Below, one piece after another: positions 5,371-37,639 of a stretch of DNA of 37,680 nt. Positions within the stretch are counted from its first letter, which is position 1, and every line of letters begins with the position of its first letter. The translations under genes and the position numbers were made by a program. Source of the stretch: Azotosporobacter soli (GTDB lineage: Bacteria > Bacillota > Negativicutes > SG130); the NCBI RefSeq assembly GCF_030542965.1, contig NZ_JAUAOA010000027.1, positions 1 to 37,680 of the forward strand, in the 5' to 3' direction. The notes beneath the pieces were generated by a model. The model had not been told where the DNA came from. It saw nothing but the letters and a program-made list of their open reading frames with translations, and searched no databases.

Positions 5371-6609
5371 ATGATCAGTTGCCGGGAAATTGTACATCTG
5401 CCGTCCTTGAACAAGCTTCGTCTGGTGGCTGGCGAAGCGGGCTTGGATCGTGTCGTGCGCTGGGTTCATTTTATTGATCTGCCGGATGTGATTCCCTGGG
5501 TGCAGGGCGGTGAACTGTTGATTATCACCGGTATCGGTCTGCAGGGCGACGCGGCTAAGCTTAAAGAAGTGGTACGCGGCAGTATCCGAAAAAAATTGGC
5601 CGGACTGATCGTGAACGTCGGCCGCTACATCAAGGAAGTGCCGCCGGACGTTGTCGCGCTGGCCGATAAAGCCGGATTTCCGATTTTTGAACTGCCTTGG
5701 GAAGTGAAACTTATCGATGTGACGCAGGAAATCTGCAGTCATATTATTATGAAGCAGACGGAGGAACGCTCACTCAATGATTTCCTGGAGCAATTGCTTT
5801 TTCGTCCGTTGGCTGACAGCGAAGTGCTGATCGAGCGTGCGGCTTTTTACGGTTACGATTTGGCAAAACCGCATCAGGTGGCGATTATCCGCCCGCATCA
5901 ATTACGGGAGTTTTTGCAGACGCAGCGCGAAAAAGATGAAAAGGCGCTGGTCGCGCTGAAGGTCCGTTTTGAACGGATTGTGCGTGAGGCGCTGGAGCGG
6001 CGGGGGCGGAAAATGATTTCGATGCTCTGGCTTGATGACATGCATTTGCTGATGCCGCATCCGGAAAAGGATACGCAATCGCGCCAAAATGTCGCGTTGC
6101 TTGCGGAAATTATCGAGCGTCTCGCGTCGGAAATCCCAGGCTTGTTTGTGTCGGCTGCGCTCGGCGGTACGTTTGAATGTTTGCAGGAGGCCAGAAACAG
6201 TTATCTGCAGGCGAATAAAGCGTTGCGTTTTAGCGAACGGAAAAAGGTTTCGCCGCCGATCTACTTGTATGAGCAGTTGGGTATTTATAAATTGCTCTTT
6301 GAAGTGGAAGCGGATAAATTGGCCGCCTATCATCAAGAGGTGATCGAACCGCTCAATGAATATGATAAAAAACATCATATGGCGATGGCGGAATGTCTGA
6401 CGGTGTACTTTGAAGAAAATTGCAATGCGGCCAAGACAGCGAAACGTTTGTTCTTGCACCGTAATACGCTCGATTATCGTTTAAAGAAAATAGAAGAAAT
6501 TACCGAGCGGAGTCTAAATGATCCGTATGACAGATTAACGTTGCAATTAGGGACGTTGATTGCAAGACAATTGGAGGGCGATGCGATTTCGCCGCAAGTT
6601 TCCGACTGA
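5371..6609 (+). CDS. PucR-family transcriptional regulator
   Basis: 412-residue regulator. The N-terminal PucR domain (about 1-120) has RWVHFIDLPDVIPWVQGGELLIITG. A GGDEF-like middle region follows (CdaR type). The C-terminal PucR HTH has YFEENCNAAKTAKRLFLHRNTL-type sequence ending YRLKKIEEIT. This architecture is typical of activators of purine, GABA, proline and other nitrogen-compound catabolism. The ATG at 5371 is preceded by AAGGAGGG; an upstream TTG at 5338 has no such site. It lies between the aldehyde dehydrogenase and aminotransferase genes, and similar TTGTGA-N5-TCAC palindromes precede both, so it is the likely local regulator. Its last codons share AGTTTCCGACT with the palindromic element at 2931-3150. 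Confidence 0.92.
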   Translation: MISCREIVHLPSLNKLRLVAGEAGLDRVVRWVHFIDLPDVIPWVQGGELLIITGIGLQGDAAKLKEVVRGSIRKKLAGLIVNVGRYIKEVPPDVVALADKAGFPIFELPWEVKLIDVTQEICSHIIMKQTEERSLNDFLEQLLFRPLADSEVLIERAAFYGYDLAKPHQVAIIRPHQLREFLQTQREKDEKALVALKVRFERIVREALERRGRKMISMLWLDDMHLLMPHPEKDTQSRQNVALLAEIIERLASEIPGLFVSAALGGTFECLQEARNSYLQANKALRFSERKKVSPPIYLYEQLGIYKLLFEVEADKLAAYHQEVIEPLNEYDKKHHMAMAECLTVYFEENCNAAKTAKRLFLHRNTLDYRLKKIEEITERSLNDPYDRLTLQLGTLIARQLEGDAISPQVSD

Positions 6610-6618
6610 CGGGATTAT

Positions 6619-6658
6619 CTCACAAAAAGCGAGCGGTTTTTTTGTGAGGAACTCACCT
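6619..6658 (+). promoter_or_regulatory. Inverted repeat and candidate PucR operator before the aminotransferase
   Basis: Two overlapping structures lie here. The first is a 10-bp perfect inverted repeat CTCACAAAAA (6619-6628) with TTTTTGTGAG (6639-6648), which has no T run after it and so is a poor terminator. The second is TTGTGA-N5-TCACCT (6642-6658), matching the left arm and the TCAC core of the palindrome upstream of the aldehyde dehydrogenase. It abuts a weak promoter TAGACG-17 bp-TAGTAT (6658-6686). Confidence 0.4.
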
Positions 6659-6724
6659 AGACGTGTAAAGTTGTAAATGATAGTATGGGGTCAAGGAAAA
6701 AATCAAATGATGAATTTAGCAATG

Positions 6725-6769
6725 GCGCTGATGCATATCAAAAAGATATGTCTCAGCGCGTTTATTTTT
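6725..6769 (+). terminator. Terminator-like hairpin in the aminotransferase leader
   Basis: GCGCTGATGCATATC (6725-6739) pairs with GATATGTCTCAGCGC (6745-6759) in 13 of 15 positions with a 5-A loop, followed by GTTTATTTTTG. It sits between the presumed promoter and the aminotransferase ribosome binding site, where it could attenuate expression. It could also terminate pucR read-through. Confidence 0.5.
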
Positions 6770-6800
6770 GCCCGATTTATCATGACGGGAGGAAATTAGC

Positions 6801-8120
6801 ATGACAAAGGAACTGAGCAAGACGGAAGAGCTGATGCAACGAAAAAATAATGCGGTTGCCGCCCCAATATCCAATACAACGGGGATTTTTGTCGAGCGGG
6901 CAAGCGGAGCGGTGATTACGGATGTTGAAGGGCGAGAATTTCTCGACTTTTACGCAGGCGTCGGCGTGTTGAATGTCGGACACTGTCCGGAGTCGGTTGT
7001 GAAGGCGGTGCAAAAACAGGCAGGCGAACTGCTGCATTCTTTCTTTGCAATCGGCATGTACGAATCCTATGTCGCACTGGCGGAAAAGATGAATGCGCTG
7101 CTGCCGGGCAGTGGACCCAATAAGACGATGTTTGCCAACAGCGGTGCAGAGGCGGTTGAGAATGCGGTGAAGATCGCACGACAGGCGATGAAGCGACCGG
7201 GCATTATTTCTTTTGAAGGCGGCTTTCATGGCCGGACGCTGATGGCAATGAGTCTGACCAGTAAGGTGAAACCGTACAAGCATGGTTGTGGGCCGATGGC
7301 GCCGGAGGTGTACAAGGTGCCCAGCGCTTATTGCTACCGTTGTCATTATCGTTCCGAATATCCCGGCTGCGGCATGCACTGTCTGGAAAACTTTGAACGC
7401 TTCTTTATTTCTGAAGTGGATGCCGAGCAAATTGCAGCGATGATTATTGAACCGGTGCAAGGTGAAGGCGGCTTTATCGTACCGCCACCCGAGTTTTTGC
7501 CGGGCGTCAAAGCGATTTGCGAGAAAAAGGGCATTTTGTTTATTGCAGACGAAATTCAAAGCGGTTTCGGGCGCACCGGAAAAATGTTTGCGATTGAAAA
7601 CTGGGGCGTAGAGCCGGATCTGATGACGACCGCAAAATCGATTGCCGCCGGCGTGCCGCTCAGTGCGGTGACCGGCAAGGCCGAGTACATGGATGCGCCT
7701 GGTCCGGGCGTGATCGGCGGGACGTATGGCGGCAATCCGCTGGCCTGCGTCGCGGGTCTTGAAACGATAAAGCTGATCGAAGAGCAGGAGCTATGCAAAC
7801 GCGGCGCTAAAATCGGCCAGATCACGATGAAGCGGTTGAAAACTCTGCAAGAACGCTGCAAGATCATCGGCGATGTGCGCGGACTCGGTTCAATGATCGG
7901 CATCGAGCTGGTAAAAGACCGTCAGACGAAAGAACCGGCGAAAGATCTTACGGCTAAAGTCGTCAAGTATTGTTTGGAAGAAGGTGTAATGCTGATCAGC
8001 GCCGGAATCTACGGCAATGTGATCCGCCTCTTGATTCCGCTGGTCGTGACCGACGAACAGCTGGATAAAGGGTTGACGGTGCTGGAAAAAAGTCTGCTGC
8101 GGGCGGCAGAGGAAGCATAG
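6801..8120 (+). CDS. Class III PLP-dependent aminotransferase (GabT-like)
   Basis: 439-residue class III (omega-) aminotransferase moving an amino group from 4-aminobutyrate or a similar omega-amino acid to 2-oxoglutarate or pyruvate. Visible are FANSGAEAVENAVK, FEGGFHGRT, the acid LFIADEIQSGFGRTG and the PLP lysine, Lys279 in TTAKSIAAG. A four-cysteine insert, CYRC then CGMHC (Cys178, 181, 190, 194), looks like a metal or disulfide site. I recall similar inserts in Firmicute GabT-like proteins. With the aldehyde dehydrogenase and permease it makes a two-step route from amino acid to semialdehyde to acid. Start: ATG after GGGAGGAAATTAGC. The substrate is not settled. Confidence 0.9.
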   Translation: MTKELSKTEELMQRKNNAVAAPISNTTGIFVERASGAVITDVEGREFLDFYAGVGVLNVGHCPESVVKAVQKQAGELLHSFFAIGMYESYVALAEKMNALLPGSGPNKTMFANSGAEAVENAVKIARQAMKRPGIISFEGGFHGRTLMAMSLTSKVKPYKHGCGPMAPEVYKVPSAYCYRCHYRSEYPGCGMHCLENFERFFISEVDAEQIAAMIIEPVQGEGGFIVPPPEFLPGVKAICEKKGILFIADEIQSGFGRTGKMFAIENWGVEPDLMTTAKSIAAGVPLSAVTGKAEYMDAPGPGVIGGTYGGNPLACVAGLETIKLIEEQELCKRGAKIGQITMKRLKTLQERCKIIGDVRGLGSMIGIELVKDRQTKEPAKDLTAKVVKYCLEEGVMLISAGIYGNVIRLLIPLVVTDEQLDKGLTVLEKSLLRAAEEA

Positions 8121-20423: not shown

Positions 20424-21806
20424 ATGGACGAAAAAGCGAAGTGTCCGATCGCCCTCTTGGAACAGATAAGCAGTTTTATTGAAAAGGAACTGGGCCTTTA
20501 TTTTCCGCCGGAACGCAGCTGCGATTTGGAACGGGGGATGGCGGCCTGCGCCGCTGATTTTGGTTTTGCGGACGCGGAAGCTTGCGTGCGCTGGCTGCTA
20601 AGCACGGAGCCGACAAAGGAACAGTTGGAAAAAATGGCGGTGCACCTGACTGTCGGCGAGACGTTTTTCTTTCGCGACCGGGAGCTGTTTGCGGCGCTCG
20701 AAGAGCAGTTCTTCCCCGAACTGATCAAGCGCAAACGCGAAAAGGATAAGACGATCCGCATTTGGAGCGCCGGCTGTTCAAGCGGCGAAGAACCGTACTC
20801 GCTTGCCATTTTGTTGGATCGACTGTTGCCGGATATTGCGGACTGGAAGATCATGGTTTTGGCGTCGGACATCAATCCAGCGGCGCTGGCTAAAGCCGAA
20901 GGCGCACGTTATAACGAATGGTCGTTTCGTGATACGCCGAGCTGGGTCAAAAAAGATTATTTTGACAAAGTGAAGCATGAATTTACCCTGCAGGAGAAAA
21001 TCAAACGGTTGGTAAGTTTTTTTGCTTTGAATCTTGCGCAAACTGACTATGCCGGCGTGGACAGCCGCATTGCGGAGCTCGACTTGATCTTCTGCCGCAA
21101 TGTGCTGATGTATTTTTCGCGCGAGCGAAGTCTGAAGGTGGTCAAAAAATTATATGGCTGTACCGCGCAGTACGGTTGGATCGTGATGAATCCGCTCGAG
21201 GCGACGCCCGAGGTGCGCGCTCTCTTTACGCTGCCGAGTCCGTTCACATCGGCCATGCATGGCAGAGGCGCGTTTGAAATGCCGCAGCCGCTTTGCGCCT
21301 CTGGCGACGTTCTTGTCCTGCCGAAAAACGTTTTTTCGCCGCCGGAAGAGGCGGAAGGCGACTCTGCAGGCAAGAACGCGCCGGAATTTGAGACAACGAG
21401 CGTCATTGACGCAGCGCAGGGACAAAATCTCGCCGATCAGGGGCGATTGAGCGAAGCGCTCGAATGGTGCAAGGCGGCGCTCGAACGCGATAAATTGAAT
21501 CCGGCGCTACATCATTTGAGCGCGATGATTTTCCTTGAAATGGAGCGCAAAGAAGAAGCAAGCATCGCGTTGAAACGCGTCATTTACCTGAAGCCAGATT
21601 CCGTGCTCGCGCATTTTTCGCTTGGCTGCCTCTACCATCAACAGGAGCAGTCTGCGGAAGCGGAAAAACATTTCACCGCAGTCCGCATGCTGCTCGCCGG
21701 TCACGAACCGGAGGAAATGGTATCGGATACGGACGGAATCAGCGTGGCGGGATTGCTTGAGATCATGCAAGGCATAGCGCAAGGCGAAAATGGGGTGAAG
21801 ACATGA
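20424..21806 (+). CDS. cheR: CheR-type methyltransferase with TPR tail (WspC-like)
   Basis: 460-residue chemoreceptor glutamate methyltransferase. An N-terminal helical domain (1-75, with HLTVGETFFFRD) leads to the SAM-binding core, IWSAGCSSGEEPYSLAI, followed by VLASDINPAALAKA and LIFCRNVLMYF. After a low-complexity linker, residues about 335-425 carry roughly three TPR units (LADQGRLSEALEWCKAALE and relatives). A C-terminal TPR tail is characteristic of WspC in Wsp-type systems. It uses SAM to methylate the receptor and thereby tune signalling. Its stop overlaps the next start by 4 bp (ATGA). Confidence 0.93.
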   Translation: MDEKAKCPIALLEQISSFIEKELGLYFPPERSCDLERGMAACAADFGFADAEACVRWLLSTEPTKEQLEKMAVHLTVGETFFFRDRELFAALEEQFFPELIKRKREKDKTIRIWSAGCSSGEEPYSLAILLDRLLPDIADWKIMVLASDINPAALAKAEGARYNEWSFRDTPSWVKKDYFDKVKHEFTLQEKIKRLVSFFALNLAQTDYAGVDSRIAELDLIFCRNVLMYFSRERSLKVVKKLYGCTAQYGWIVMNPLEATPEVRALFTLPSPFTSAMHGRGAFEMPQPLCASGDVLVLPKNVFSPPEEAEGDSAGKNAPEFETTSVIDAAQGQNLADQGRLSEALEWCKAALERDKLNPALHHLSAMIFLEMERKEEASIALKRVIYLKPDSVLAHFSLGCLYHQQEQSAEAEKHFTAVRMLLAGHEPEEMVSDTDGISVAGLLEIMQGIAQGENGVKT

Positions 21807-22387
21807 ACTGGGAGGCGGTTTATCAGCGTTTGGCGGCAGTCGGCGCCGCGCTGGCAGCAAACGAAAATCCGGATGCAGATAGAAAGGCTTTGATTTTCAA
21901 GGCGAGAGCAGAGCGTCTGGCGCAGGAAAAAGCGGCCACGCCGGAAGGAACGCGCCACGAAATGCTGGAATTTCAGCTGGGCAGCGAGTCGTATTGCATC
22001 GAAACCGCCTATGTGGAAGAAGTATGCCCGTTGAAAGATTATACCGATTTGCCTGGAACGCCGCCGTTTGTTGCGGGGTTAATCAATGTGCGCGGGAGGA
22101 TCCTTTCGCTTGTCAATATCAAGGCGTTCTTTGCTCTGACCGAGCAGAGCGTCAGTGAAACGAGCAAAGTGATGATCCTGCGTGACGGGGAAATGGAGTT
22201 CGGCGTCTTAGCCGATGAAATTATCGGCGTGACGGAAGTGGCGCGTCAGGATATCGAGCCACTGCTTGCGACGTTGGAGGAAAAGCGCGGCGAGTGGCTG
22301 AGCGGAATCACGCGCTGCGGCTGTGCGGTCATCGATGCGCGCCAATTGCTGACGGATGCGCGCATCATTGTCGACGATGAAGTGTGA
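21803..22387 (+). CDS. cheW: CheW-like adaptor (second copy, WspD-like)
   Basis: 194-residue adaptor. A 50-residue helical N-terminal extension precedes a CheW domain (about 52-190) with MLEFQLGSESYCIETAYVEE, FVAGLINVRGRILSLVNIK and FGVLADEIIGVTEV. A second CheW with such an extension is the WspD pattern. Overlap with cheR (ATGA) implies coupled translation. Two different adaptors in one operon suggest a two-adaptor array geometry. Confidence 0.9.
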   Translation: MNWEAVYQRLAAVGAALAANENPDADRKALIFKARAERLAQEKAATPEGTRHEMLEFQLGSESYCIETAYVEEVCPLKDYTDLPGTPPFVAGLINVRGRILSLVNIKAFFALTEQSVSETSKVMILRDGEMEFGVLADEIIGVTEVARQDIEPLLATLEEKRGEWLSGITRCGCAVIDARQLLTDARIIVDDEV

Positions 22388-22437
22388 AGGTTGTTTTACG
22401 GCAGAGCCAGAGGAGAAACAAGGAGGGCGGATGCAAG

Positions 22438-24423
22438 ATGAAATGGTTTTTGAATTTGTCGACGCGGACGAAGTTGGTGGCCGGTTTTGGCGTGATCGTT
22501 CTCTTCTTACTCTGGGTATTGATCCTTGCCTATAGCGGAATCACGAGCGTTCGCAGATCGCAAAACGAACTCTTCAATGACGATTTTTTAGAAGTGCGCG
22601 ATCTCGCTGAATTTCGGGTCGATCAGAATCGCAGCCGGGTACAGCTCTTGGAAATGATGATGACAAAAGACAGGGAAAAGCAGCTTGCTTTGGAAAAAGC
22701 CATTCGCAGTCAAGCGAAAGTAATTGATATCAATTTGCAAAGGATTGGTGAAGCGGCGAAAGAACATCCGAGTGAATTAAAAAAATTCGAGGAAATGATG
22801 CTGCGCATCGAGGAGTATCGGAAAACGCGTGAAATGCAAGTTGCTCTGATCGGCAGCGGCCGGATTGCCGAAGCATTGGAAGTCTCGAATGCGCTGCAGG
22901 AAGAACGCTATGAACGCATCCGAAATCTGGCGCAGGAAATGGAAGAATTCGCGGTGGCGGAAGCGTTGGAAAAAATAAAGAAGACCGAGGAGAGTACGGA
23001 AAAAATCGGTTTTTGGTTCAGCATGCTCGGGGGAAGCAGCATCCTGATCAGCATCCTGGTAATATCGTTTTTGAACAGCAGCATTGCCAAACCGCTCGAC
23101 CGGCTGACGGCGATGGCGCGGCAAATGGCGCAAGGCGATTTGCGCATTGCGGCCGCACGCGAAGAACGGCGTGATGAGGTGGGCATGCTGATGGGCAGCT
23201 TCGCGGCGATGGTGCGCTACATTCAGGATATGGCCGATCTGTCGCAGCAGATCGCCAGGGGCGATCTGGCGGTGAAGGTCAAGGCGAGTTGTGCGGATGA
23301 TGTCCTGGGCAATGCCTATGTGGATATGGTAGCGTATTTGCAGCATATGGCCGATGCTTCGCAGCAGATTGCCAAAGGCGATTTGTCGGTACCGGTAACG
23401 CCGCTTTCCGAGCGAGACGTTCTGGGCAACGCCTATGCGGAAATGCTGCATTATCTGCGTGAAATGGCCGAAGTATCCGGACAGATCGCGGCAGGCAATC
23501 TGACCGTAATGGTGCAGCCGATATCGAGCAAGGACATGCTGGGCAACGCTTATGCCGACATGATTGCCAATTTGCGGCAGATGAGCATGGAAGTGCGCGA
23601 CGGCGTAAATGTGCTCGCCGCGTCGACTGCGGAAATACAAGTTGCGATGAGCCAGGTTTCATCCAGTATGACGGAAACGGCCAGTTCTGTTGCCGAAACG
23701 ACCGCCACAGTCGAAGAAGTCAAGCAAACCGCGCAGTTGTCGGCGGAAAAGTCAAAGAGCGTCTCAGATACGGCGCAAAAAGCGTCGCTGATCGCACGGC
23801 AGGGCAATGAGGCGGTGCGCGAAACGGTAAGCGGCATCAATCATATTCGCACACTAATGGAATCGGTTGTCGAAAGCATTGTGCGTCTGAGCGAACAGAC
23901 GCAGATGATCGGCGAAATCATCGCGTCGGTTAATGATCTGGCGCAGCAGTCGAACCTGCTAGCCGTCAATGCGGCGATCGAGGCTTCGAAGGCGGGGGAA
24001 CAGGGCAGAGGTTTTACCGTAGTGGCGCAGGAAATAAAAAGTCTGGCCGAGCAGTCGAAACAGGCAACCGAGCAGGTACGCACGATCCTGTCCGATATTC
24101 AAAAAGCGAGCGGGGCTTCGGTGCTCGCGGCCGAGCAGGTCAGCAATGCGGTCGACGGCGGCGTGAAGCAGGCCGATGATTCCGGCGAATCGATTCGACG
24201 TCTCTCGGACGGCATTGCCGATTCGGCGCAAACGGCGATCCAAATCGCCGCTTCCAGCCAGCAGCAATTGGCGGGCATGGAGCAGGTGGCGCAGGCCATG
24301 GAAAGCATCAAACAGGCGGCGCGGCAAAATCTCTCCGGCACTAAACAGGTAGAGGCGGCAGCGGAAAGTCTGAATGAACTCGGGCAAAAACTGAAACGGA
24401 TCGTAGATGCGTATCGGGTCTGA
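22438..24423 (+). CDS. Methyl-accepting chemoreceptor with tandem HAMP repeats
   Basis: 661-residue transmembrane receptor, WspA position. TM1 spans about 14-33; a four-helix-bundle periplasmic sensor (34-190) follows; TM2 spans about 191-212. A normal HAMP (213-262) is then followed by three further HAMP-like units of about 39 residues each (263-302, 303-341, 342-381), each with (S)xQIAxGxLxV and a LGNAYxxM closing motif. The signalling domain (385-661) has the CheA/CheW-binding tip around DLAQQSNLLAVNAAIEASKA, split at NLLAVN. No C-terminal CheR-tethering pentapeptide is seen. ATG 22438 follows AAGGAGGGCGG at 7 nt. Confidence 0.93.
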   Translation: MKWFLNLSTRTKLVAGFGVIVLFLLWVLILAYSGITSVRRSQNELFNDDFLEVRDLAEFRVDQNRSRVQLLEMMMTKDREKQLALEKAIRSQAKVIDINLQRIGEAAKEHPSELKKFEEMMLRIEEYRKTREMQVALIGSGRIAEALEVSNALQEERYERIRNLAQEMEEFAVAEALEKIKKTEESTEKIGFWFSMLGGSSILISILVISFLNSSIAKPLDRLTAMARQMAQGDLRIAAAREERRDEVGMLMGSFAAMVRYIQDMADLSQQIARGDLAVKVKASCADDVLGNAYVDMVAYLQHMADASQQIAKGDLSVPVTPLSERDVLGNAYAEMLHYLREMAEVSGQIAAGNLTVMVQPISSKDMLGNAYADMIANLRQMSMEVRDGVNVLAASTAEIQVAMSQVSSSMTETASSVAETTATVEEVKQTAQLSAEKSKSVSDTAQKASLIARQGNEAVRETVSGINHIRTLMESVVESIVRLSEQTQMIGEIIASVNDLAQQSNLLAVNAAIEASKAGEQGRGFTVVAQEIKSLAEQSKQATEQVRTILSDIQKASGASVLAAEQVSNAVDGGVKQADDSGESIRRLSDGIADSAQTAIQIAASSQQQLAGMEQVAQAMESIKQAARQNLSGTKQVEAAAESLNELGQKLKRIVDAYRV

Positions 24424-24449
24424 AAGCGAAGGATGCGGAGGCGGCGCAG

Positions 24450-26675
24450 ATGGATCAAAAGGATGAAGAATTCTTGAAAAGGCTTTTGGCCTTATTCAAG
24501 ATTGAAGCGCAGGAACATTTGAAAATCATTGCGACGGGCTTGGCTGAATTGGAATACTGTGATGCGCAGCAAGGCGGCGCGGTCGTGGAGCGGATTTATC
24601 GCGAAGCGCACAGCTTGAAAGGGGCGGCATGTTCCGTCAATTGGAGCGACATCGTCGCGCTTTGTCAGACGATGGAAGATGTTTTTTCCGCCTTGAAACG
24701 CGGCGACATTTTCTTTTCGCCGCGCATGAAGGACCGCTTGCTCGCTGCGACGGACTGGCTGGAAAATTTGATTGTCGGAGCCGCACTGACGCCGAATGCG
24801 AAGCTGCTTGGCAAAGAGCTGGTGCGCGAACTGGAGAATCTGGTCAACGGTCAGGCGGCAGACGGAGCGGAAAAAAACGCAAACGAAGGCGAAGCGGAAA
24901 AAGAGACCGCTGACAAAGAGCGGGAACTGGAAATGCAGGCAAGCGTGCTGTCGAGTGTCGCTTCTGCAGCGGTCGACGATACCGTGCGTATTTCGCTTAG
25001 CAAACTGGATGCCCTGCTTTTGCAGGTGGAAGAACTATTGGTCGTCAAGATGGCGCTGCGTCAGCGGGCAGCCGAGCTGCGTGAGATCAAGAAGCTGACC
25101 GAACTGCTGAAAAAAGAAAAGTGCGCTTTGCCGGAGCGAAAAACAGGAGAACGGGGAAGCGGCTTCTATTTGGGGCAATTGGAGAAGAAAGTGAATCAGC
25201 TCACGAAAGCCATGGAATACGACAGCCGGGGAACCGCAAGCATGGTGGACACGTTGTTAACGGATATGAAGAAGGCGCTGATGCTGACGGTCGGCTCGCA
25301 GCTCGACGGTTTTCCGCGTTTTGTGCGTGAACTGGCCAGAGAATCGGGCAAGCAGGCAGAACTGGTCATTGAAGGGCGGGAAATTGAAATCGACCGACGC
25401 GTGCTGGAAGAAATGAAGGATCCGTTGCTGCATTTAGTGCGCAACTGTATGGTGCATGGCATCGAGGAACCAAAAGTAAGGCAGCAGCGACAGAAACCGC
25501 CTTGCGGCGTCATTCAGATCGCTGTGCTGGCAAAAGATAACAAGATTGAAATTAATGTGAGCGATGACGGCGGCGGCATCGATGTGGAGAAGGTCAAAGA
25601 AACGGCAGTCGAGCGCGGCTTACTCTCGCCGAGCGAAGCCGAGTCGCTAAGCGTCGGAGACGCGTTGCAATTGATCTTTCATTCGGAAATCAGCACCGCG
25701 CCGATGGTAACCGATAATGCGGGGCGCGGTTTAGGGATGGCAATCGTGCGGGAAAAAATTGAGAAGCTGAACGGCGCGCTGCAGCTTGAAACGCAAGCGG
25801 GCAGAGGAACGACATTTCAATTGTCGATTCCAATCAGTCTGGCGATGTTGCGCGGTCTGGTAGTCAGTGAACGGCAACGCTTCTTCATTTTTCCGGCAGG
25901 AAAAGTGGCGCGGGTCGCGCGCATTCATAAAGAAGCGATACGTACGGTGGGAAATTGCGAGATGGTGTCGCTCGACGGTCGGCCCGTTGCGCTGGTTCGC
26001 CTCGCCGACGTGCTTGCCCTTGAAACACAAAAGCAGCTGCGGCAAAGCGAAGCAGACTATATCCCGGTTGTTGTCCTGCACTCCGGCGAACAGAGCCTGG
26101 CCTTCGGCGTTGATGAAGTACTGCAGGAGCAGGAGGTCTTGGCGAAGCCGCTGGGGCGTCAACTCTCACGGGTACGCAATATAGCAGGCGCGACCATTCT
26201 CGGCAACGGGAAAATCGCGCCGATTCTCCATGTACCGGATCTGATAAAATCAGCGCTGCGCAATCCGGCAGCCTGCAGCGTGCAAAACAATGCGCCGCTT
26301 AAAGCCTGCAAGGTGGTTTTAGTGGCGGATGACTCGATTACGGCGCGCATGATGCTAAAGCATGTTTTAGAAAGCGCCGGCTATGAAGTTGTCACCGCGG
26401 TCGATGGCTTGGAAGCGTTCGCTTTGCTGCAGAAGCAGGAACGCAAAATCGAACTTCTCGTATCCGATGTCAATATGCCAAAATTGGATGGTTTTTCTTT
26501 GACGGAAAAAATCAGACGTGATGAGCGTTTTGCCAAACTTCCGGTGGTGCTGGTCACTTCGTTGGAAGAGAAGAGCGACCGGGAGCGCGGCATCGATGTC
26601 GGCGCCGATGCCTATATCGTCAAGAGCAGTTTTGATCAGAATCATCTGCTGGAAGTGTTAGAACGGCTGATTTGA
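24450..26675 (+). CDS. cheA: Hybrid chemotaxis kinase CheA-REC (WspE-like)
   Basis: 741-residue kinase. The Hpt domain has phospho-His54 in REAHSLKGAACS. A charged, Glu-rich linker (about 130-165) replaces a recognisable P2 domain. The dimerisation helices (about 175-270) precede the ATPase with N-box LVRNCMVHGIEEP (Asn332) and G1 box DDGGGIDVEKV (Asp372). A CheW-like P5 region follows, then a C-terminal receiver (about 621-741) with Asp627/Asp628 and phosphoacceptor Asp673 in VSDVNMPKLDG. A CheA carrying its own receiver is the WspE/FrzE pattern; the receiver may be an output or a phosphate sink. No separate CheY is encoded in the operon. Confidence 0.94.
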   Translation: MDQKDEEFLKRLLALFKIEAQEHLKIIATGLAELEYCDAQQGGAVVERIYREAHSLKGAACSVNWSDIVALCQTMEDVFSALKRGDIFFSPRMKDRLLAATDWLENLIVGAALTPNAKLLGKELVRELENLVNGQAADGAEKNANEGEAEKETADKERELEMQASVLSSVASAAVDDTVRISLSKLDALLLQVEELLVVKMALRQRAAELREIKKLTELLKKEKCALPERKTGERGSGFYLGQLEKKVNQLTKAMEYDSRGTASMVDTLLTDMKKALMLTVGSQLDGFPRFVRELARESGKQAELVIEGREIEIDRRVLEEMKDPLLHLVRNCMVHGIEEPKVRQQRQKPPCGVIQIAVLAKDNKIEINVSDDGGGIDVEKVKETAVERGLLSPSEAESLSVGDALQLIFHSEISTAPMVTDNAGRGLGMAIVREKIEKLNGALQLETQAGRGTTFQLSIPISLAMLRGLVVSERQRFFIFPAGKVARVARIHKEAIRTVGNCEMVSLDGRPVALVRLADVLALETQKQLRQSEADYIPVVVLHSGEQSLAFGVDEVLQEQEVLAKPLGRQLSRVRNIAGATILGNGKIAPILHVPDLIKSALRNPAACSVQNNAPLKACKVVLVADDSITARMMLKHVLESAGYEVVTAVDGLEAFALLQKQERKIELLVSDVNMPKLDGFSLTEKIRRDERFAKLPVVLVTSLEEKSDRERGIDVGADAYIVKSSFDQNHLLEVLERLI

Positions 26676-26703
26676 TGCGGATGCCCATGCGGGAGGGAAC
26701 GGC

Positions 26704-27783
26704 ATGATTCGGGTATTGGTGGTGGAAGACTCCAGAGTGTCGCGTGAATGGATCATTCATGTTCTGCAGTCGGATCCGGAAATTGAAGTGATCGGTTTTG
26801 CGGAAAATGGCCGTGAAGCGGTTGAATTTGTCGCGCGCGATAAGCCGGATTTGATTACGATGGATATCTGTATGCCGGAAATGGATGGCTTCGAGGCGAC
26901 GCGCCGCATCATGGAGATGAACCCGGTACCGATTATCATGCTGACCGAGCAGCCCGAGATGCGTGAACTCGAAACTTCCTTCAGCGCGATCGATGTGGGC
27001 GCGCTGCTAGTCGTGAAGAAGCCGCCGGGATTAGGGCATCCGGAGCAGGCGCAGGCGGCGAAAGAACTGATTAGAATGGTCAAGCTGATGGCTGAGATCA
27101 GGGTGGTCAGGCGGCGCATGCGCGCGTTTGAAGAAAAAAATTCCTGCCAGCGCGAAGCGGAAAGCTGGGCAACGGAGAAATGGCAGGCGATACGCGTGCT
27201 TGGCATTGGCGCTTCGACCGGCGGACCGCCGGTCATTCAAAAAATACTGGCGGAAATGCCGTCTGATTTTCCCTTGCCGATCTTAATCGTGCAACATATG
27301 GCGCGGGGTTTTACCGAAGGTTTCGTCGAGTGGCTGGGCAAGACCGCGGCGCTGCCGGTCCAGCTTGCCGCTAACGGAGGCGATATCCGGGCGGGGCAGG
27401 TCTATGTCGCGCCGGACGGCTTGCAAATGAAGGTGGACGGCAATAATCACCTGATCTGCAGGGAGGAAATGAGCATGCATGGACTGAGTCCATCGGTCTC
27501 CTATCTCTTTCAATCGCTGGCCCTTCACTATGGAGCAGCGGCGATGGGGATATTATTGACTGGCATGGGCAAGGACGGAGCGGCTGAATTGGCCTTGATG
27601 AAGAAAGCAGGAGCGCTGACGATCGCTCAGGATCGCGAGAGCTCTATCGTATTCGGCATGCCAGGAGAAGCCGTGCGCCTGAACGGTGCGAGTTACGTTT
27701 TGCCGCCGGAGCGGATCGTGTTGTTGTTGAAAAAAATAGCTGAAGACGTGCAGCGAAAGGGAGAAGCGGCATGCAGGAGATAG
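26704..27783 (+). CDS. cheB: CheB methylesterase response regulator (WspF-like)
   Basis: 359-residue receptor demethylase. The receiver (1-125) has phosphoacceptor Asp54 in [11 protein letters not shown]. The catalytic domain (about 165-350) has the Ser-His-Asp triad: Ser171 in GASTGGPP, His198 in VQHMARG and Asp291 in GMGKDGA. It removes receptor methyl groups, opposing CheR. Its last 13 bases overlap the start of the hybrid kinase, so the two are co-translated. Confidence 0.95.
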
Positions 27784-30743
27784 GACGGCAGACGGTAAAA
27801 ATTCTCGTCGTGGAAGACAGTCCAACCCAGGCAGAACAGTTAAAATACTTTCTCGAAAAGGAAGGCTTTGCGGTGACGGTCGCGCCGGACGGCCTTTCGG
27901 CGCTGCAAATGCTTGCGCAGTGTTGCCCGGATGTCATTATCAGCGATGTTGTGATGCCGGAAATGGACGGTTATGCGCTTTGCAAGCGCTTGCGCGAATC
28001 AGAAGCGTGGCAGGAAGTGCCGGTCATTCTGCTGACAAGCCTGTCTGATCCGATCGATGTGATCAAGGGACTTGACGCCGGCGCGAATAATTTCATCACC
28101 AAACCGTATGCCGGGCAATACTTGGTCTCGCGCATTCGCTATTTGCTGGTGAACAAGGAACTGCGGCGCGCGTCTTCCGAGAGCGACGAGATCACGATCT
28201 TTTTCGCCGAACAAACATTCCATGTCTCGGCCGGGCGTCTACAGATCCTTGATTTACTGCTCTCCACTTATGAAAATGCGTACAACCAAAACAGCGAGCT
28301 GCGCCGCGCAAGGCAGGAACTGGTAGAGATGAACGAAGGCCTGGAAGAGATCGTGCAAAAACGAACCGAAGAACTGTTGGTTGTAAACCGACGTCTCCAA
28401 GTGGAACTGGCGGAGCGCAAACAAGCCGAAGAGGAAATACGGCAGCTGAACAGCAGTCTGGAGACGCGTGTGAGCGAACGGACGCAGGAATTGGAACGGG
28501 TGAATGCGGAACTGACCAACGCTAAGGAAATTGCCGAGGCGGCCAGCAAGGCAAAAGGCAGCTTTGTCGCCAACATGAGCCATGAGATCCGAACGCCGAT
28601 GAATGCGATCGTCGGAATGAGCAAAATGCTGGCGGACAGCCCGCTCGACGACAAGCAACGCGGTTGGCTGAAGAAAATGGATATGGCGACGCAGATGCTG
28701 CTTGGCGTCATCAATGACATCCTCGATTTTTCCAAGATTGAAGCCGGAAAACTGGAGATCGAATGGATCGAATTCGATTTGGAAAGCCTGGTTCGTACCG
28801 CGGTGGGCATGCATGGCGTCAAGGCGGCGGAAAAAGGGTTGGAACTCAACGTCCGTATGCCGGACGATTTGCCGCCGTGCATGAATGGAGATCCGCTGCG
28901 CTTAAGCCAGATTGTGCATAATTTGCTTAGCAACGCGATCAAGTTCACGCAGCGCGGTGAAGTGACGCTGCAGATCGAAGAACTCAAACAAATACGTGAG
29001 ACGCTCATCCTGCAATTGACGGTAGAGGACAGCGGCATCGGCATGAGCGAAGAGCAGCAGGAGGGGCTGTTTCGGGCGTTCAATCAGGCGGACAGTTCTA
29101 CGACGCGCAAGTATGGCGGCACGGGCTTGGGCCTGGCGATCTGCAGGCAGTTGTGCGAGCTGATGGGCGGCAGTATCCGCGTGGAAAGCGAAGCGGGCGT
29201 CGGCAGCCGTTTTATCGTGGTCCTGCCTTTCAATATCGCGGCGGAGCGCGGCCGTCAACCACGTTGGCTGACGGCGGAGGAATTGCGCGGCAAACGGATT
29301 TTGCTGGCGGAAGACAATAGCGCGGCGCGGCAAATCGTCGCGAATATGCTGACCGCGATGCAATTTAGCGCCAGTGCGGTAGATGGAGGAACGGCCGCCT
29401 TGAAAAAACTGCGCGAAGCAAAAGAGTCCGGCGAGAGATTCGATTTGATCATCCTCGATCGGTCGATGCCGGATATGGACGGCATTGCGACTGCGAGGGC
29501 CATTCGGGAAGAAGAGCTGTCGGATGCACCAAAGCTGCTCTTAGTCACGGCGTGCGAAGCGGAAACGGCGCCGCAGCAAGGCGGTGAAAATGATCTGGCC
29601 GGGTCGTTGACAAAACCGGTCCAACCTTCGGAATTGTTCGAGGCGATCCTCGATTGCTTCGGCAAACGGCGCAGCGCAAAACGGCAGCTGAAAGAGCGGA
29701 TCACGTTTGCCGGTACGCGGATCTTACTGGTCGAAGATAACGAGATCAATCAGGAAATCGCACTGGAACTGCTGCGCAAACTGGAGATCGAAGTGGAAGT
29801 TGCCTGCAACGGAGAAGAGGCAGTCGAACTGGTTCAACGCGGCGGCTTTGCGATGGTGCTGATGGATATCCAGATGCCGGTGCTCGACGGAATTGAGGCG
29901 ACGAAGCGGATTCGGGCCTTGCAAGATCCGGCGCTGAAAGAATTGCCGATTGTTGCGATGACGGCGCATGCAATGAAAGGCGATCGGGAGAAAAGTCTCG
30001 CGGCCGGCATGAATGACCATTTGACGAAGCCGATCAATCAGGACGCGTTGGAAAAGGTGTTGGAGCAGTGGCTGACGCAGTATGCGACAACGCTGGCGGC
30101 GCCGGAAGAGAGCGGCAAGGGAGAACGTGTCCGAGGCATCGACGGGATTGATGCGGCAGCGACCTTGCAATTGCTCGACGGCAATGAAAGCATGTATATA
30201 CGGCTTTTGCAAAAATATCTTGAACAATACAACGAAACGGCGAATCAGCTGCGCGCTGCTTTGGAGAATGCAGATTGGCAGCTTGCCGTGCATTTGGTGC
30301 ATAGCGTCAGGGGCGTTTCCGGCAATCTGGGCGCAACGCGCGTGCAAAAGGCGGCCGCTGAACTGGAAACGGCGCTCAATCGGCAAACGGATTATCAGGA
30401 CGCGCTGGGGAGTTTTATTCAGGAGCAAGAGTGTTTGAAAACGGCGCTGCGCGATTTTTTTGCGCAACAGGAAGAAAGCCAGCCGCTTGCCTCGCCGGTC
30501 GGTGACCAGGCGGAACTTAGCTTGCTGCTTAAAGAACTCGAACCTTTCTTGCAGCGGCGTCAGCCTAAACCCTGCCGGGAACTGATCGAAAAGCTAAAGG
30601 CAAAGCGCTGGCCGCAGTCGGCGCAGCGCGAAATCGAAGAACTCGGCGAAGAAGCGGAGCATTATCGCTTTGCGGAAGCGCTGCGCCATTTACGCCGCGC
30701 GAGCGAATTGTTGGCGGATTGCACGGGGGAAGCGGGGGATTGA
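27771..30743 (+). CDS. Hybrid histidine kinase REC-HisKA-HATPase-REC-REC-Hpt
   Basis: 990-residue cytoplasmic multi-step phosphorelay protein with no membrane segments. An N-terminal receiver has Asp59 ([11 protein letters not shown]). A coiled coil (about 175-260) leads to HisKA with His271 ([12 protein letters not shown]) and an HATPase with the GTGLGLAI box. Receiver 2 has Asp563 ([10 protein letters not shown]) and receiver 3 has Asp699 ([10 protein letters not shown]). The Hpt domain has His844 in [14 protein letters not shown]. The N-terminal receiver could be phosphorylated by the operon's CheA, making this a second kinase layer feeding the Hpt and then the next gene's receiver. It ends 1 bp before the next start. 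Confidence 0.93.
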
Positions 30744-30744
30744 A

Positions 30745-31803
30745 ATGGAAATGAGAAAACGGTCGCAAATCTTGATTGTGGAAGACTCGGAAGTGAACGT
30801 CGATATTTTGGTCGAGGCGCTGGGGGATGACTATGAGATCAGCGTCGCGTTGGATGGAGAAACGGCACTGCTGGCAGTGGGTGAGGCACAGCCGGATTTG
30901 ATTCTGCTCGATATCGTCATGCCCGGACTCAGCGGCTACGAAGTCTGCCAGCGTTTGAAGAAAAATAAGGACTTCCGCCATATTCCGATCATCTTTCTGA
31001 CCTCGCTCACCGACGAAGCGGATGAGGCGAAGGGGCTGAGCCTTGGCGCGGTAGACTACATCATAAAACCTTATAATCTGGCGATGGTCAAGGCGCGCGT
31101 TCGCAATCATCTGGAATTGAAACGTTATCACGATTCGCTGGAAGAGCTGGTTGCCTTGCGAACCGGTGAACTGGAAGCGACGAAGAGAGCGATCATTGGT
31201 TGTATGGCGGTGCTCGGCGAGTTTCGGGATACGGAAACCGGCGCGCACACGCAGCGCACGCAGGAATATGTCAGCGTTTTGCTGACCGTGCTTGATAATG
31301 AAGAAGCGAAGATGTCGGTCGAGCGCAAGCAGCTGCTTTGCCAGTCAGCGGTGCTGCATGACATCGGTAAGATTGCCGTGCCGGATGCGATCCTGCAAAA
31401 ACCGGGCCCTCTGACGGCCGAAGAATTCGAAGAAATGAAAAAGCATACTTTGGTGGGCGGATTGATCATCCGGCGCGCGGAACAGGCGATCGGGCACAAC
31501 TCCTTTCTCGGCTTGGTCGGAGAGATCGCGGAATTTCATCATGAAAAATGGGATGGCAGCGGTTATCCGCATGGCCTTAAAGGGAAAGAAATCCCTTTCG
31601 GCGCGCGTTTGATGGCGTTGGCGGACATCTATGACGCATTGATCAGTGTGCGTCCGTACAAGAAAGGCTTTTCGCATGAAGAAGCGCTGCAGATCATTTT
31701 AGACGGCGACGGGCGGACGAAACCGGAACACTTCGACCCGGAAATTCTTGCTGCGTTTGCAAAGGTGCATGAATCGTTCCGGAACATTGGGCAGGGGCAG
31801 TGA
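30745..31803 (+). CDS. REC-HD-GYP response regulator (predicted c-di-GMP phosphodiesterase)
   Basis: 352-residue response regulator. The receiver (1-125) has phosphoacceptor Asp56 (LLDIVMPGLSG). A helical linker (126-150) leads to the HD-GYP domain. That domain has His205-Asp206 in LHDIGKIAVPD, HHEKWDGSGYPHGLKG with Gly273-Tyr274-Pro275, and ADIYDALISVRPYK. All signature residues are intact, so cyclic-di-GMP hydrolysis is predicted. In the Wsp locus this last position is held by the diguanylate cyclase WspR; here the output would have the opposite sign. ATG 30745 follows CGGGGGATTGAA and is 1 bp after the kinase stop. Confidence 0.93.
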   Translation: MEMRKRSQILIVEDSEVNVDILVEALGDDYEISVALDGETALLAVGEAQPDLILLDIVMPGLSGYEVCQRLKKNKDFRHIPIIFLTSLTDEADEAKGLSLGAVDYIIKPYNLAMVKARVRNHLELKRYHDSLEELVALRTGELEATKRAIIGCMAVLGEFRDTETGAHTQRTQEYVSVLLTVLDNEEAKMSVERKQLLCQSAVLHDIGKIAVPDAILQKPGPLTAEEFEEMKKHTLVGGLIIRRAEQAIGHNSFLGLVGEIAEFHHEKWDGSGYPHGLKGKEIPFGARLMALADIYDALISVRPYKKGFSHEEALQIILDGDGRTKPEHFDPEILAAFAKVHESFRNIGQGQ

Positions 31804-31860: not shown

Positions 31861-31889
31861 TTGACGTATGCTGGACATCTTGCTACAAT
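31861..31889 (+). promoter_or_regulatory. Promoter of the cobalamin riboswitch transcript
   Basis: TTGACG (31861-31866), 17-bp spacer, TACAAT (31884-31889): five of six matches in each element. Transcription would start near 31896, just before the riboswitch. Confidence 0.75.
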
Positions 31890-32098: not shown

Positions 32099-32147
32099 TA
32101 AGAAGGCTTTTTTGGCATGACGTCCAAAAAAGTCTTTTCTTTTTTTC
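32099..32147 (+). terminator. Riboswitch expression platform (intrinsic terminator)
   Basis: AGAAGGCTTTTTTGG (32101-32115) pairs with CCAAAAAAGTCTTTTCT (32124-32140) across an 8-nt loop, followed by seven T. It lies between the aptamer and the start codon (32201), as expected for transcriptional control. Confidence 0.85.
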
Positions 32148-32200
32148 GACTGCGCCTGACGAATAGCACTATTCTTATTGATGATTTTGGAGGTTGCGTT

Positions 32201-34126
32201 ATGAAAATATTAGAAGAAGCATTGGCGAGAATCGTTGCACCGGATGAGGCGATAAAAGAATGCGTCCGAGAAAAACTGGCGCAAGCAATTCGTGCGCCGG
32301 AGCGTTTAGGACGTTTAGGTGCGATGCTCGAACAATACGCCGCAGTAACAGGAAGCGCTGCACCCCAAGCGCCGAAAAACTGCATGGTGATCGCGTCGGC
32401 CGATCATGGCGTCGCAAAGCGCGGCATCAGCGCGTATCCGATTGAGACGACAATGGGGATGACGGAAAATTATCTGGTGTCAAAAGGGGCCAGCGCAAAT
32501 GCATTCGCTAATTTTTGCGGCGCCGACATGGTCGTAATGGACATGGGTGTGGCCGGCGACTTATCCCATGTGCCGGGCCTTTTGCAGCGAAAAATAGCGT
32601 ACGGTACGCAGGATTTCAGTGAAGGAGCGGCGATGACGAAAGAGCAGGCCGTTCAGGCTCTGGAAAGCGGAATTGCGCTCGTCAATGAACAGGCGGCAAA
32701 AGGCTACCGCTGCTTCAGCCTCGGAGAAATGGGGATCGGCAATACAACGTGCAGTGCGACGATTGTGGCGGCTTTTCTCGCGCTTGCGCCGGAAATCGTT
32801 ACCGGACGGGGCACCGGCATTTCCGACAGCCGTCTGCAGGTGAAAATGGAACTGGTTCGGCGTGCGCTGATGGTGAACAACCCCGATCCGACGGACGGAC
32901 TCGATGTCTTGGCTAAAGTAGGCGGTTTTGAAATCGGCGCGCTGGCCGGCGTCGTGCTGGGCTGCGCGGCCAACCGGTGCGCCGTCGTGCTCGACGGACT
33001 CAATACCACGGCGGCTGCGCTGATTGCACAGGCCATACATCCGCTCGCGAAAGAGTACATGTTTGCCTCGCACCTTTCGGGCGAGCCGGCGCATCGCATC
33101 GCACTGCGCCATTTGGGTCTCGATGCCTGCGTCGATATGGGCGTGAGGCTCGGCGAAGCGATCGGCGCGTCGATCGTCATGGATATGATCAAACTGTCGG
33201 TTTCGTTATTGGAAAAAGCGCCGTTAAGCTCCCTGCCGGAGGAAAACGAAACGCAAAGAAGCAAGCGTTCTTTGGCGGAACGGATCGCGCAAATCGAAGC
33301 GCTGGATGAAGCGGCGATGCAGGCGTGCCAACTGCGCCTGGACAATCTGACGAAACCGCTGGCCAGTCTGCATCACTTTGAACATATCGCACTGCAATTG
33401 GCAGGCGTGACCGCTCAGCCAAGGCCGCGAAATCTGAAAAAAAGCGTAGTGCTGCTCTGCGAAGCGGATAGCGTAGAGGAAGATGTGGTGATTGCGCGCC
33501 GTTTTGCGCAGCATGCCGGGGCGGAGCTTATCGTCGCGGCAGCGAAGGAGCAAAGCCTTGCGTCGCAAGAGACCATCGCGGCGCTTCACGCCGGGATCGA
33601 TCTGGCCGAAAGTCTGGCGGATAACGGGCAACGCATCATCGGTCTTGGCGCGCTGACGAAAGACTACAGAACGGCAGAAGAGGTCATTGCCCACAGCAAG
33701 AGTGAAACGTCGGATGCGCTTACGTTGCTTTATGAACACGCTGGCGGACAGATTGCCGCTTTGGTCGGCGTGATCATCGGCGCCGCCGCCAGCCGTTCCG
33801 TCGTCATCATCGACGATCTCGTCACCGCGGCCGCCGCGCTGCTCGCGCTCAAACTGGCGCCGCAAAGCAAAGCGTATTTGATGGCGTCTCATCTTTCGCC
33901 GCACGGCGCGCACGGCGAAGCGCTGATGCAGCTCGGTCTGCCGGCGTATCTGAAACTTGACCTGCGCTTTCAGGGCGGCTGCGGCGCTGCGCTGGGCATG
34001 GCGCTACTCGATGCGTCGCTGCATATGTTAAACGATATGAAAACGTTCGGCGATGCGCAGGTCGCCGTTGCCGAAGACGGCCCCGGCGCGCTGAAGCAAA
34101 ACCTGGCCGTTAAGGAAAATAGCTAA
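32201..34126 (+). CDS. Fused tandem CobT-like phosphoribosyltransferase (ArsAB-like fusion)
   Basis: 641-residue protein, nearly twice the roughly 350 of CobT, which transfers phosphoribose from nicotinate mononucleotide to the cobamide lower-ligand base. Residues 1-350 form a complete CobT domain: ADHGVAKRGISAYP, GEMGIGNTT with Glu176, and RLGEAIGAS with Glu319 at the catalytic-base position. Residues about 365-641 are a second, degenerate CobT domain aligning with LTKPLASL, GGQIAALVGVIIGAA and KAYLMASHLS. There GEMGIGNTT has become GALTKDYRT and the catalytic Glu is Gly592. One active plus one inactive subunit recalls the Sporomusa ArsAB heterodimer, which activates phenolics. ATG 32201 follows GGAGGTTGCGTT. 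Regulated by the upstream riboswitch. The base specificity is inferred. Confidence 0.9.
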   Translation: MKILEEALARIVAPDEAIKECVREKLAQAIRAPERLGRLGAMLEQYAAVTGSAAPQAPKNCMVIASADHGVAKRGISAYPIETTMGMTENYLVSKGASANAFANFCGADMVVMDMGVAGDLSHVPGLLQRKIAYGTQDFSEGAAMTKEQAVQALESGIALVNEQAAKGYRCFSLGEMGIGNTTCSATIVAAFLALAPEIVTGRGTGISDSRLQVKMELVRRALMVNNPDPTDGLDVLAKVGGFEIGALAGVVLGCAANRCAVVLDGLNTTAAALIAQAIHPLAKEYMFASHLSGEPAHRIALRHLGLDACVDMGVRLGEAIGASIVMDMIKLSVSLLEKAPLSSLPEENETQRSKRSLAERIAQIEALDEAAMQACQLRLDNLTKPLASLHHFEHIALQLAGVTAQPRPRNLKKSVVLLCEADSVEEDVVIARRFAQHAGAELIVAAAKEQSLASQETIAALHAGIDLAESLADNGQRIIGLGALTKDYRTAEEVIAHSKSETSDALTLLYEHAGGQIAALVGVIIGAAASRSVVIIDDLVTAAAALLALKLAPQSKAYLMASHLSPHGAHGEALMQLGLPAYLKLDLRFQGGCGAALGMALLDASLHMLNDMKTFGDAQVAVAEDGPGALKQNLAVKENS

Positions 34127-34182: not shown

Positions 34183-34260
34183 ACGATAAACGTATTTTGC
34201 AAAAGCAGGAGCCGGACGGCGCTGTGCGGAATCAGGTAAGGGAAGAAAGGCGGGATGAAC

Positions 34261-34881
34261 ATGGATTTCAACAAAGAGGCGGCAAACTGGGACACGCCGC
34301 AACGACTGGAACGGGCGGCGGTCATTGCCGGGGAAATCCGCCGTAGCGTCAGCTTGCAGGGCGAACTGAAAGCGCTCGAATTCGGCGCAGGAACCGGCTT
34401 GATCAGTTTTGAACTGGCGGATTCGCTGGCTGAGATCTGGTGCGTCGATCCGTCGGCAGCGATGATTGCAAAGCTGCAGGAAAAGATTGCGCAGCGCAAA
34501 CAAGGAAACATCCGGGCCTGCTGCGCGGCAATCGAAAGCATCGAAGCGCCGGGCGAAGGCTTCGATCTTATTTATACGTCGATGGCGCTGCACCATGCAA
34601 GCGATCTTCTGAAAACGCTCACTACGCTGGCGCGCTTGCTCCGTTTTGGCGGCAGCCTTTGCATTGTCGACTTGGATGAAGACGACGGAAGCTTTCATCG
34701 GCAGGAAGAAAATTTTTCCGGCTATCACGGCTTTCAGCAGACAGGGCTCAAAGCGGTTCTGGAAAAGGTCGGCTTTTCTGAGGTGAAAGCGAAGACGTTT
34801 TATCACGGCAAAAAGAAGCTGGAAAATGGTACGGAGCATCCGTATTCGCTCTTTAGCATGAGCGGGAAAAAGAGCAGTTAA
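34261..34881 (+). CDS. Class I SAM-dependent methyltransferase
   Basis: 206-residue methyltransferase of the Methyltransf_11/25 type. Motif I is ALEFGAGTGLISFEL, the acidic residue of motif II is in CVDPSAAM, and FDLIYTSMALHH and FGGSLCIVDLDEDD represent motifs IV and V. The substrate is unknown; the C-terminal part resembles small-molecule methyltransferases. ATG 34261 has AAAGGCGG at 7 nt; an ATG two codons upstream (34255) is also possible. It follows a terminator, so it must have its own promoter in the 134-bp gap; I did not find a clear one. Confidence 0.88.
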   Translation: MDFNKEAANWDTPQRLERAAVIAGEIRRSVSLQGELKALEFGAGTGLISFELADSLAEIWCVDPSAAMIAKLQEKIAQRKQGNIRACCAAIESIEAPGEGFDLIYTSMALHHASDLLKTLTTLARLLRFGGSLCIVDLDEDDGSFHRQEENFSGYHGFQQTGLKAVLEKVGFSEVKAKTFYHGKKKLENGTEHPYSLFSMSGKKSS

Positions 34882-37035: not shown

Positions 37036-37103
37036 GTATAAAGAAAACCACGCGCTAGGCGTGTGGTTCCGGAAAGCTTATAGCTATAAGTAGAAAAGAA
37101 AAG

Positions 37104-37158
37104 CCTCCTTTGCTAGAATAAATGCAGGTTTGCCGACCGCATAAACTAACAAAGGAGG
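37104..37158 (+). promoter_or_regulatory. Leader pairing that hides the tnpA ribosome binding site
   Basis: CCTCCTTTGCTAG (37104-37116) is complementary to CTAACAAAGGAGG (37146-37158) in 12 of 13 positions. The second arm contains the AAAGGAGG Shine-Dalgarno of tnpA. IS200 elements are known to restrain transposase translation with such a leader structure. Confidence 0.6.
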
Positions 37159-37168
37159 AGTATCCAAA

Positions 37169-37639
37169 ATGGATAACAGCAGTTTAGCACACACAAAATG
37201 GAAATGCAAATACCATATAGTTTTCGCACCGAAATACAGAAGACAAATCATATATGGGAAAATAAAAAGTGATATCGGAGTTATACTGAGAAAGCTATGC
37301 GAACATAAAGGTGTTGAAATTATAGAAGCAAGTGCTTGCCCGGATCACGTTCACATGTTGGTAAGCATACCGCCGAAAATAAGCGTGTCAAGTTTTGTGG
37401 GGTATCTAAAAGGAAAGAGTTCATTAATGATATTTGATAGGCATGCGAACTTGAAATATCGATATGGCAATCGACAGTTTTGGTGTAAAGGATACTATGT
37501 AGATACAGTAGGTCGAAATAAAAAAGCAATTGAAGAGTATATCAAAAATCAGTTAAAAGACGATGTGATCGCCGAGCAACTTACTTTGAAAGAGCTAGTT
37601 GACCCGTTCACGGGTGAGCCAGCAAAAAAGTCGAAATAA
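37169..37639 (+). CDS. tnpA: IS200-type transposase TnpA (Y1 HUH)
   Basis: 156-residue single-strand transposase. The HUH metal motif is CPDHVHMLVSIPP, and the catalytic tyrosine is in FWCKGYYVDTVGRN near residue 111-112. Length and motifs match full IS200 TnpA, so it is likely intact. The ATG follows AAAGGAGGAGTATCCAAA. Its AT-rich codon use differs from the GC-rich neighbours, as expected of a mobile gene. Confidence 0.95.
   Translation: MDNSSLAHTKWKCKYHIVFAPKYRRQIIYGKIKSDIGVILRKLCEHKGVEIIEASACPDHVHMLVSIPPKISVSSFVGYLKGKSSLMIFDRHANLKYRYGNRQFWCKGYYVDTVGRNKKAIEEYIKNQLKDDVIAEQLTLKELVDPFTGEPAKKSK

Follow-up and report, generated by a model that had tools for sequence, protein, structure and literature searches.

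The window, that is, the whole stretch of 37,680 nucleotides of Azotosporobacter soli DNA that was analysed, carries a gene that is read in one uninterrupted frame on the forward strand, from its ATG to a stop. Its product of 641 aa is a member of the PF02277 superfamily (Pfam DBI_PRT, the CobT family), which it matches with 495 bits in three stretches. When the genome DNA was searched, the same family was found at 32234-33217, 33293-33484 and 33680-34063, corresponding to two copies, as expected from the initial annotation, which had described two CobT domains in one riboswitch-controlled gene. The features of the locus are listed in Table 1, with the two halves named after the subunits of ArsAB, the NaMN:phenol/p-cresol phosphoribosyltransferase of Sporomusa ovata (PDB 4hdk/4hdm/4hdn/4hdr/4hds), to which they are assigned below.

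Table 1. Coordinates of the fused gene, its parts and its upstream control elements in the window
Feature	Position	Strand	Basis or remark
Promoter-like site, TTGACG-17-TACAAT, extended TG	31861..31889	+	Consensus scan, 10/12; consensus only
Cobalamin riboswitch aptamer, RF00174	31901..32088	+	cmscan 85.4 bits, E 7e-20, full length 1-189
Terminator-like hairpin and T run, putative expression platform	32101..32148	+	Aptamer-to-gene interval; 15-pair stem, then CTTTTTTTCG
Shine-Dalgarno GGAGG	32189..32193	+	Sequence; 7 bases upstream of ATG 32201
Single-chain ArsA-ArsB, 641 aa	32201..34126	+	Open frame, structure matches, Pfam, tree, predicted model
ArsA half, residues 1-340, catalytic core	32201..33220	+	519 bits to 4hdk_A
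Codon of Glu176	32726-32728	+	Within ArsA half
Codon of Glu319	33155-33157	+	Within ArsA half
Linker, residues 341-357	33221..33271	+	Poorly conserved, low model confidence
ArsB half, residues 358-641	33272..34123	+	4hdk_B match; ArsB clade, SH-aLRT 100
ArsB small-domain N segment, residues 365-405 (CQLRLDNLTKP...)	33293..33415	+	Conservation mean 0.66; retained in Pectinatus
Eroded ArsB Rossmann core, residues 406-593	33416..33979	+	Ala484 and Gly592 at two Glu positions
ArsB C-terminal helix and tail, residues 594-633 (LHMLNDMKTF...DGPGALKQ)	33980..34099	+	Conservation; retained in Pectinatus

The region joining the two halves is weakly conserved (0.22 for residues 341-364), and its first part is of low confidence in the predicted model (pLDDT about 55 for residues 341-350). 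At the position of the ArsB start the fused gene has the codon TCT (Ser357). A Shine-Dalgarno-like CGGAGG at 33237-33242 in the linker, with no start codon close behind, may be either a remnant or a chance match. The single frame cannot plausibly be put down to faulty sequencing of one genome, since the same fused architecture occurs in isolates of five other genera (Propionispira, Schwartzia, Pectinatus, Anaerovibrio and Propionispora).

The riboswitch claimed in the initial annotation was recovered as a cobalamin aptamer scoring far above the curated RF00174 cut-off of 31.5 bits and followed by the terminator-like hairpin. This hairpin is retained in minimum-energy folds, the energies of which are unexceptional in comparison with shuffled sequences. 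By way of transcription termination, the riboswitch would switch the gene off when cobamide is plentiful. Riboswitches of the same family also lie upstream of arsAB in S. ovata, S. malonica, the locus L003 discussed below and several others, in front of both split and fused forms. As none of five checked Selenomonadaceae loci reached the RF00174 cut-off, control by a riboswitch does not belong to the fused architecture in general. Downstream, the next gene (34255-34881) encodes a class I methyltransferase without apparent connection to cobamides, so that the riboswitch probably controls the fused gene only. A chemotaxis/signaling cluster (20424-31803) encoding CheR, MCP, a CheA-type kinase, CheB, a hybrid kinase and a HD-GYP-type response regulator lies immediately upstream of the riboswitch. 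The window additionally contains an IS200-type transposase gene (37169-37639), ahead of which Rfam RF01405 (STnc490) is matched at 37046-37155.

Ancestry of the two halves

In a search of solved structures, residues 1-338 matched S. ovata ArsA (4hdk_A), while residues 358-422 and 518-638 matched ArsB with 65 and 127 bits, respectively (4hdk_B 2-66 and 229-349). Ordinary CobTs were hit with at most 215 bits and by the N-terminal half only. This half is 69% identical to S. ovata ArsA with all catalytic residues present, and it superposes with a Z score of 55 on the ArsA structures, including those of ArsAB crystallised with phenol, p-cresol and 5,6-dimethylbenzimidazole (DMB). The initial annotation had put forward a possible natural ArsA-ArsB fusion and had named, as part of what would overturn the ArsAB reading, a tree in which both halves branch with CobT from one recent internal duplication. 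In a tree of 102 rows that combines CobTs with the A and B halves of ArsAB, the two halves do not branch together: the N-terminal half falls within the ArsA clade (SH-aLRT 98) and the C-terminal half within the ArsB clade, together with ArsB of S. ovata and Veillonella. Both are placed apart from CobT, with which the second homologue of the same genome (contig 17, 30% identity) branches. Judged by these comparisons, the protein is an ArsA-ArsB fusion and not a recent duplication of CobT.

A tandem duplication of an ordinary CobT within this lineage, acting on a benzimidazole or purine and with a decaying second copy, would be in line with the Pfam and NCBIfam labels, which name CobT only, with the many bases usable by a CobT-like enzyme and with the Tyr/Met/Met signature (see below), which is found in ordinary CobTs too. 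Against this, one half branches with ArsA and the other with ArsB, while the true CobT of the genome branches with CobT, by which a recent internal duplication is excluded, and genes for benzimidazole synthesis were not found in the genome. A CobT duplication of this kind is therefore extremely unlikely.

ArsAB itself is already known; of the joined, single-chain form no description was found in the main texts of openly accessible papers that were searched. In S. ovata, ArsAB is encoded by two overlapping genes in different frames, likewise downstream of a cobalamin riboswitch, and its ArsB of 350 aa has both Glu motifs, whereas the fusion is one chain with a shortened ArsB core in which both Glu are lost. 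Both subunits of Veillonella parvula ArsAB fall into the same clades as the halves of the fusion but are encoded by separate genes. Another natural fusion in lower-ligand activation is BluB/CobT2 of Propionibacterium freudenreichii (PMC4657239); it joins DMB synthesis to CobT, whereas fused ArsAB joins two CobT paralogues.

The ArsB half and a probable single active site

All residues named in the initial annotation, namely Tyr79, Met87, Glu176, Met177, Glu319 and Gly592, are present in the 641-aa protein. Its description of the second half as catalytically dead holds true at the level of sequence: GLGALTKDY takes the place of GEMGIGNTT of the N-terminal half, Ala484 and Gly592 occupy both catalytic Glu positions, and the ArsB core is about 67 residues shorter than that of S. 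ovata ArsB. With Glu176 and Glu319 present in the A half, the A/B pair has one complete set of catalytic residues; ArsAB pairs in general presumably have one active site.

Both catalytic Glu are present in all 100 ArsA halves compared. The second Glu of the B halves is present in 43 of 53 separate ArsBs versus 6 of 47 fused ones (Fisher p 2e-12, but with 0-2 informative independent pairs on supported branches). Since the association is phylogenetically clustered and so few independent lineages are informative, it is not claimed that fusion drives the loss of this residue. Conservation is reciprocal between the halves. The A-half core (residues 56-320) is kept at 0.67-0.73 and the ends of this half are relaxed (0.42-0.54), while in the B half the core is at 0.34-0.53 and two terminal segments, residues 365-405 and 594-632, are at 0.66-0.75. 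The best conserved part of the ArsB half is its C-terminal helix and tail (mean 0.74-0.75), and ArsA has no counterpart of this tail.

An extreme form of this pattern is found in Pectinatus, where at four loci (about 6001-7431) the ArsAB chain measures about 477 aa and the ArsB Rossmann core is deleted. The remaining B portion of about 138 aa consists essentially of the N segment and the tail, and a predicted model of one of these proteins (pLDDT 94.5, pTM 0.94) shows it as all-helical. By comparison of the sequences, the second partner appears to have shrunk towards a helical cap in many gut and rumen relatives, and down to the cap in this one genus. If the C-terminal half were a functionless leftover, tolerated because it is harmless, a Rossmann core missing both catalytic Glu and about 67 residues would be readily understood. 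Such a leftover would not be expected to hold two segments that are among the best conserved of the protein across very distant lineages, and that Pectinatus retains although it has lost the core entirely, so that this explanation can be given hardly any weight.

The decay pattern rather suggests how the enzyme may work. In CobT, the small domain is formed by N- and C-terminal helices and closes the active site of the neighboring subunit. Salmonella enterica CobT (SeCobT) shares with the fusion its fold (Z about 51 for the N-terminal half), the chemistry of Glu174 and Glu317 and a base pocket that is built by both chains (PMC9561151), but it differs in being a homodimer with two equal active sites and a preference for DMB-type bases. 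The full-length predicted model of the 641-aa chain (pLDDT 94.1, pTM 0.94) places the two halves confidently relative to each other, as the pTM of the full chain indicates. The ArsA half would thus bind NaMN and perform the chemistry with Glu176 and Glu319, whereas the ArsB half, having no active site of its own, would use its small domain, that is, the N-terminal helices and the NDMKTF...DGPGA tail, to close over the ArsA site and to complete the base pocket in the way the neighboring subunit does in the Salmonella dimer. The fusion would lock this asymmetric 1:1 pair into one chain. Reciprocal conservation, the reduction in Pectinatus and the confident single-unit models fit one active site. 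We consider it very probable that the protein is a single-chain ArsAB in which an ArsA core and an ArsB small-domain cap form one active site that activates p-cresol or phenol.

Candidate lower ligand and cobamide context of the genome

Three things point to p-cresol or phenol as the candidate base: descent from ArsAB, the Tyr/Met/Met set and the lack of other genes for lower-ligand synthesis. Tyr79, Met87 and Met177 correspond to the three positions changed in a Salmonella CobT variant crystallised with p-cresol (4kqj, 4kqk), and their equivalents are invariant in 100 of 100 ArsA halves, yet the same set occurs in ordinary CobTs of Thermus and Trichlorobacter. As a diagnostic of phenolic specificity the set was therefore rejected, in agreement with the initial annotation, which had called it supportive only. 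The base can also not be read from homology alone, since S. ovata ArsAB has likewise been solved with DMB bound, according to the title of 4hdr.

The genome gave no sign of BzaA/B/F, as only a single copy of ThiC is present, and no BluB scored over the cut-off. Two of its genes code for tyrosine lyases, one being ThiH and the other HydG-like and adjoining a HydE-like gene. Both are expected to release p-cresol from tyrosine and would be a possible internal source of it. S. ovata and V. parvula, which both have ArsAB, produce p-cresolyl cobamide (PMC8123684).

A single-chain ArsAB by descent might nevertheless have shifted its preference to another base such as a benzimidazole, adenine or a different phenol. 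The crystallisation of ArsAB with DMB besides phenolics would allow for this, as would the divergence of the ArsB side, which helps to form the base pocket, and the large distances between lineages (50% at best for the C-terminal half of the window protein). Such a shift seems improbable, since no member of the ArsA clade deviates at Tyr79, Met87 or Met177 and since the genome has retained CobT as a separate gene; a phenolic base is preferred here.

The separate CobT is encoded on contig 17 in a cobT-cobC-cobS cluster, next to genes for an iron alcohol dehydrogenase and for a sensor kinase whose N-terminus is PocR-like. This cluster is a second base-activation module distinct from fused ArsAB, and the organism may, like V. 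parvula (PMC8123684), produce or salvage another cobamide when conditions differ.

Distribution and history of the fused form

The initial annotation had treated the fusion as a single curiosity, which does not agree with its distribution. Among 380 Negativicutes genomes searched across the class, 358 contain a homologue and at least 86 the fused form, counted where the match sits in one open frame of at least about 560 aa that reads through from one half into the other. At least five further genomes, all of one genus, have frames of 484-512 aa, as long as the proteins of Pectinatus. Carriers of the fusion include Selenomonadaceae of rumen and gut, Propionispira, Schwartzia, Megamonas, Anaerovibrio, Pectinatus and Propionispora, and arsA and arsB are separate genes in Sporomusa, Pelosinus and Veillonella. 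A search of plasmids yielded ordinary single CobTs only.

Changes between the fused and the split state number six on a combined tree and seven on the ArsA tree, only two of them being forced by supported branches, and the fusion may have arisen once or more often. The nearest relatives of the 641-aa protein are split genes, and by these relationships the fusion in the window probably arose separately from that of the Selenomonadaceae. At locus L003 (7017-7060) of a close relative, arsA and arsB lie in one frame that is interrupted by a single TAG at the Shine-Dalgarno sequence of arsB (GAGTAGGAGGC). This arrangement is a plausible precursor, one codon away from a fusion.

Phenolyl cobamides reportedly make up 16% of the cobamides in human faeces and 20-34% of those in the bovine rumen, yet the list of known producers given there names S. 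ovata and V. parvula only (PMC8123684). In the main genomic survey, arsAB was called only where two cobT genes are adjacent and was found in 27 species (PMC6461909); such a survey would accordingly miss a fusion such as the one described here, a single frame of 641 codons. This rule is one survey's search rule rather than biochemistry and was not treated as defining the enzyme. As fused forms escape it, producers of phenolyl cobamides have probably been under-counted. The genomes with the fused form, which include rumen and gut genera, represent a testable list of candidate producers. On balance, we lean towards a combined reading in which many rumen and gut Selenomonadaceae produce phenolyl cobamides by means of single-chain ArsAB and the family records a stepwise conversion of a subunit into a minimal cap, from full ArsB via a fused ArsB with a dead core to the helical remainder in Pectinatus. 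This decay series singles out the small-domain cap as the portion of ArsB that is apparently important.

A different arrangement was observed at three loci of a family coded f2, represented by L161 (862-4817), where an operon contains cobU, an ArsA-like gene, cobS, an ArsB-like gene of 286 aa and cobC. Here cobS lies between the two CobT paralogues, the latter of which again keeps its ends (RFDNLIKPVGSL, METFAEAGV) with a shortened core.
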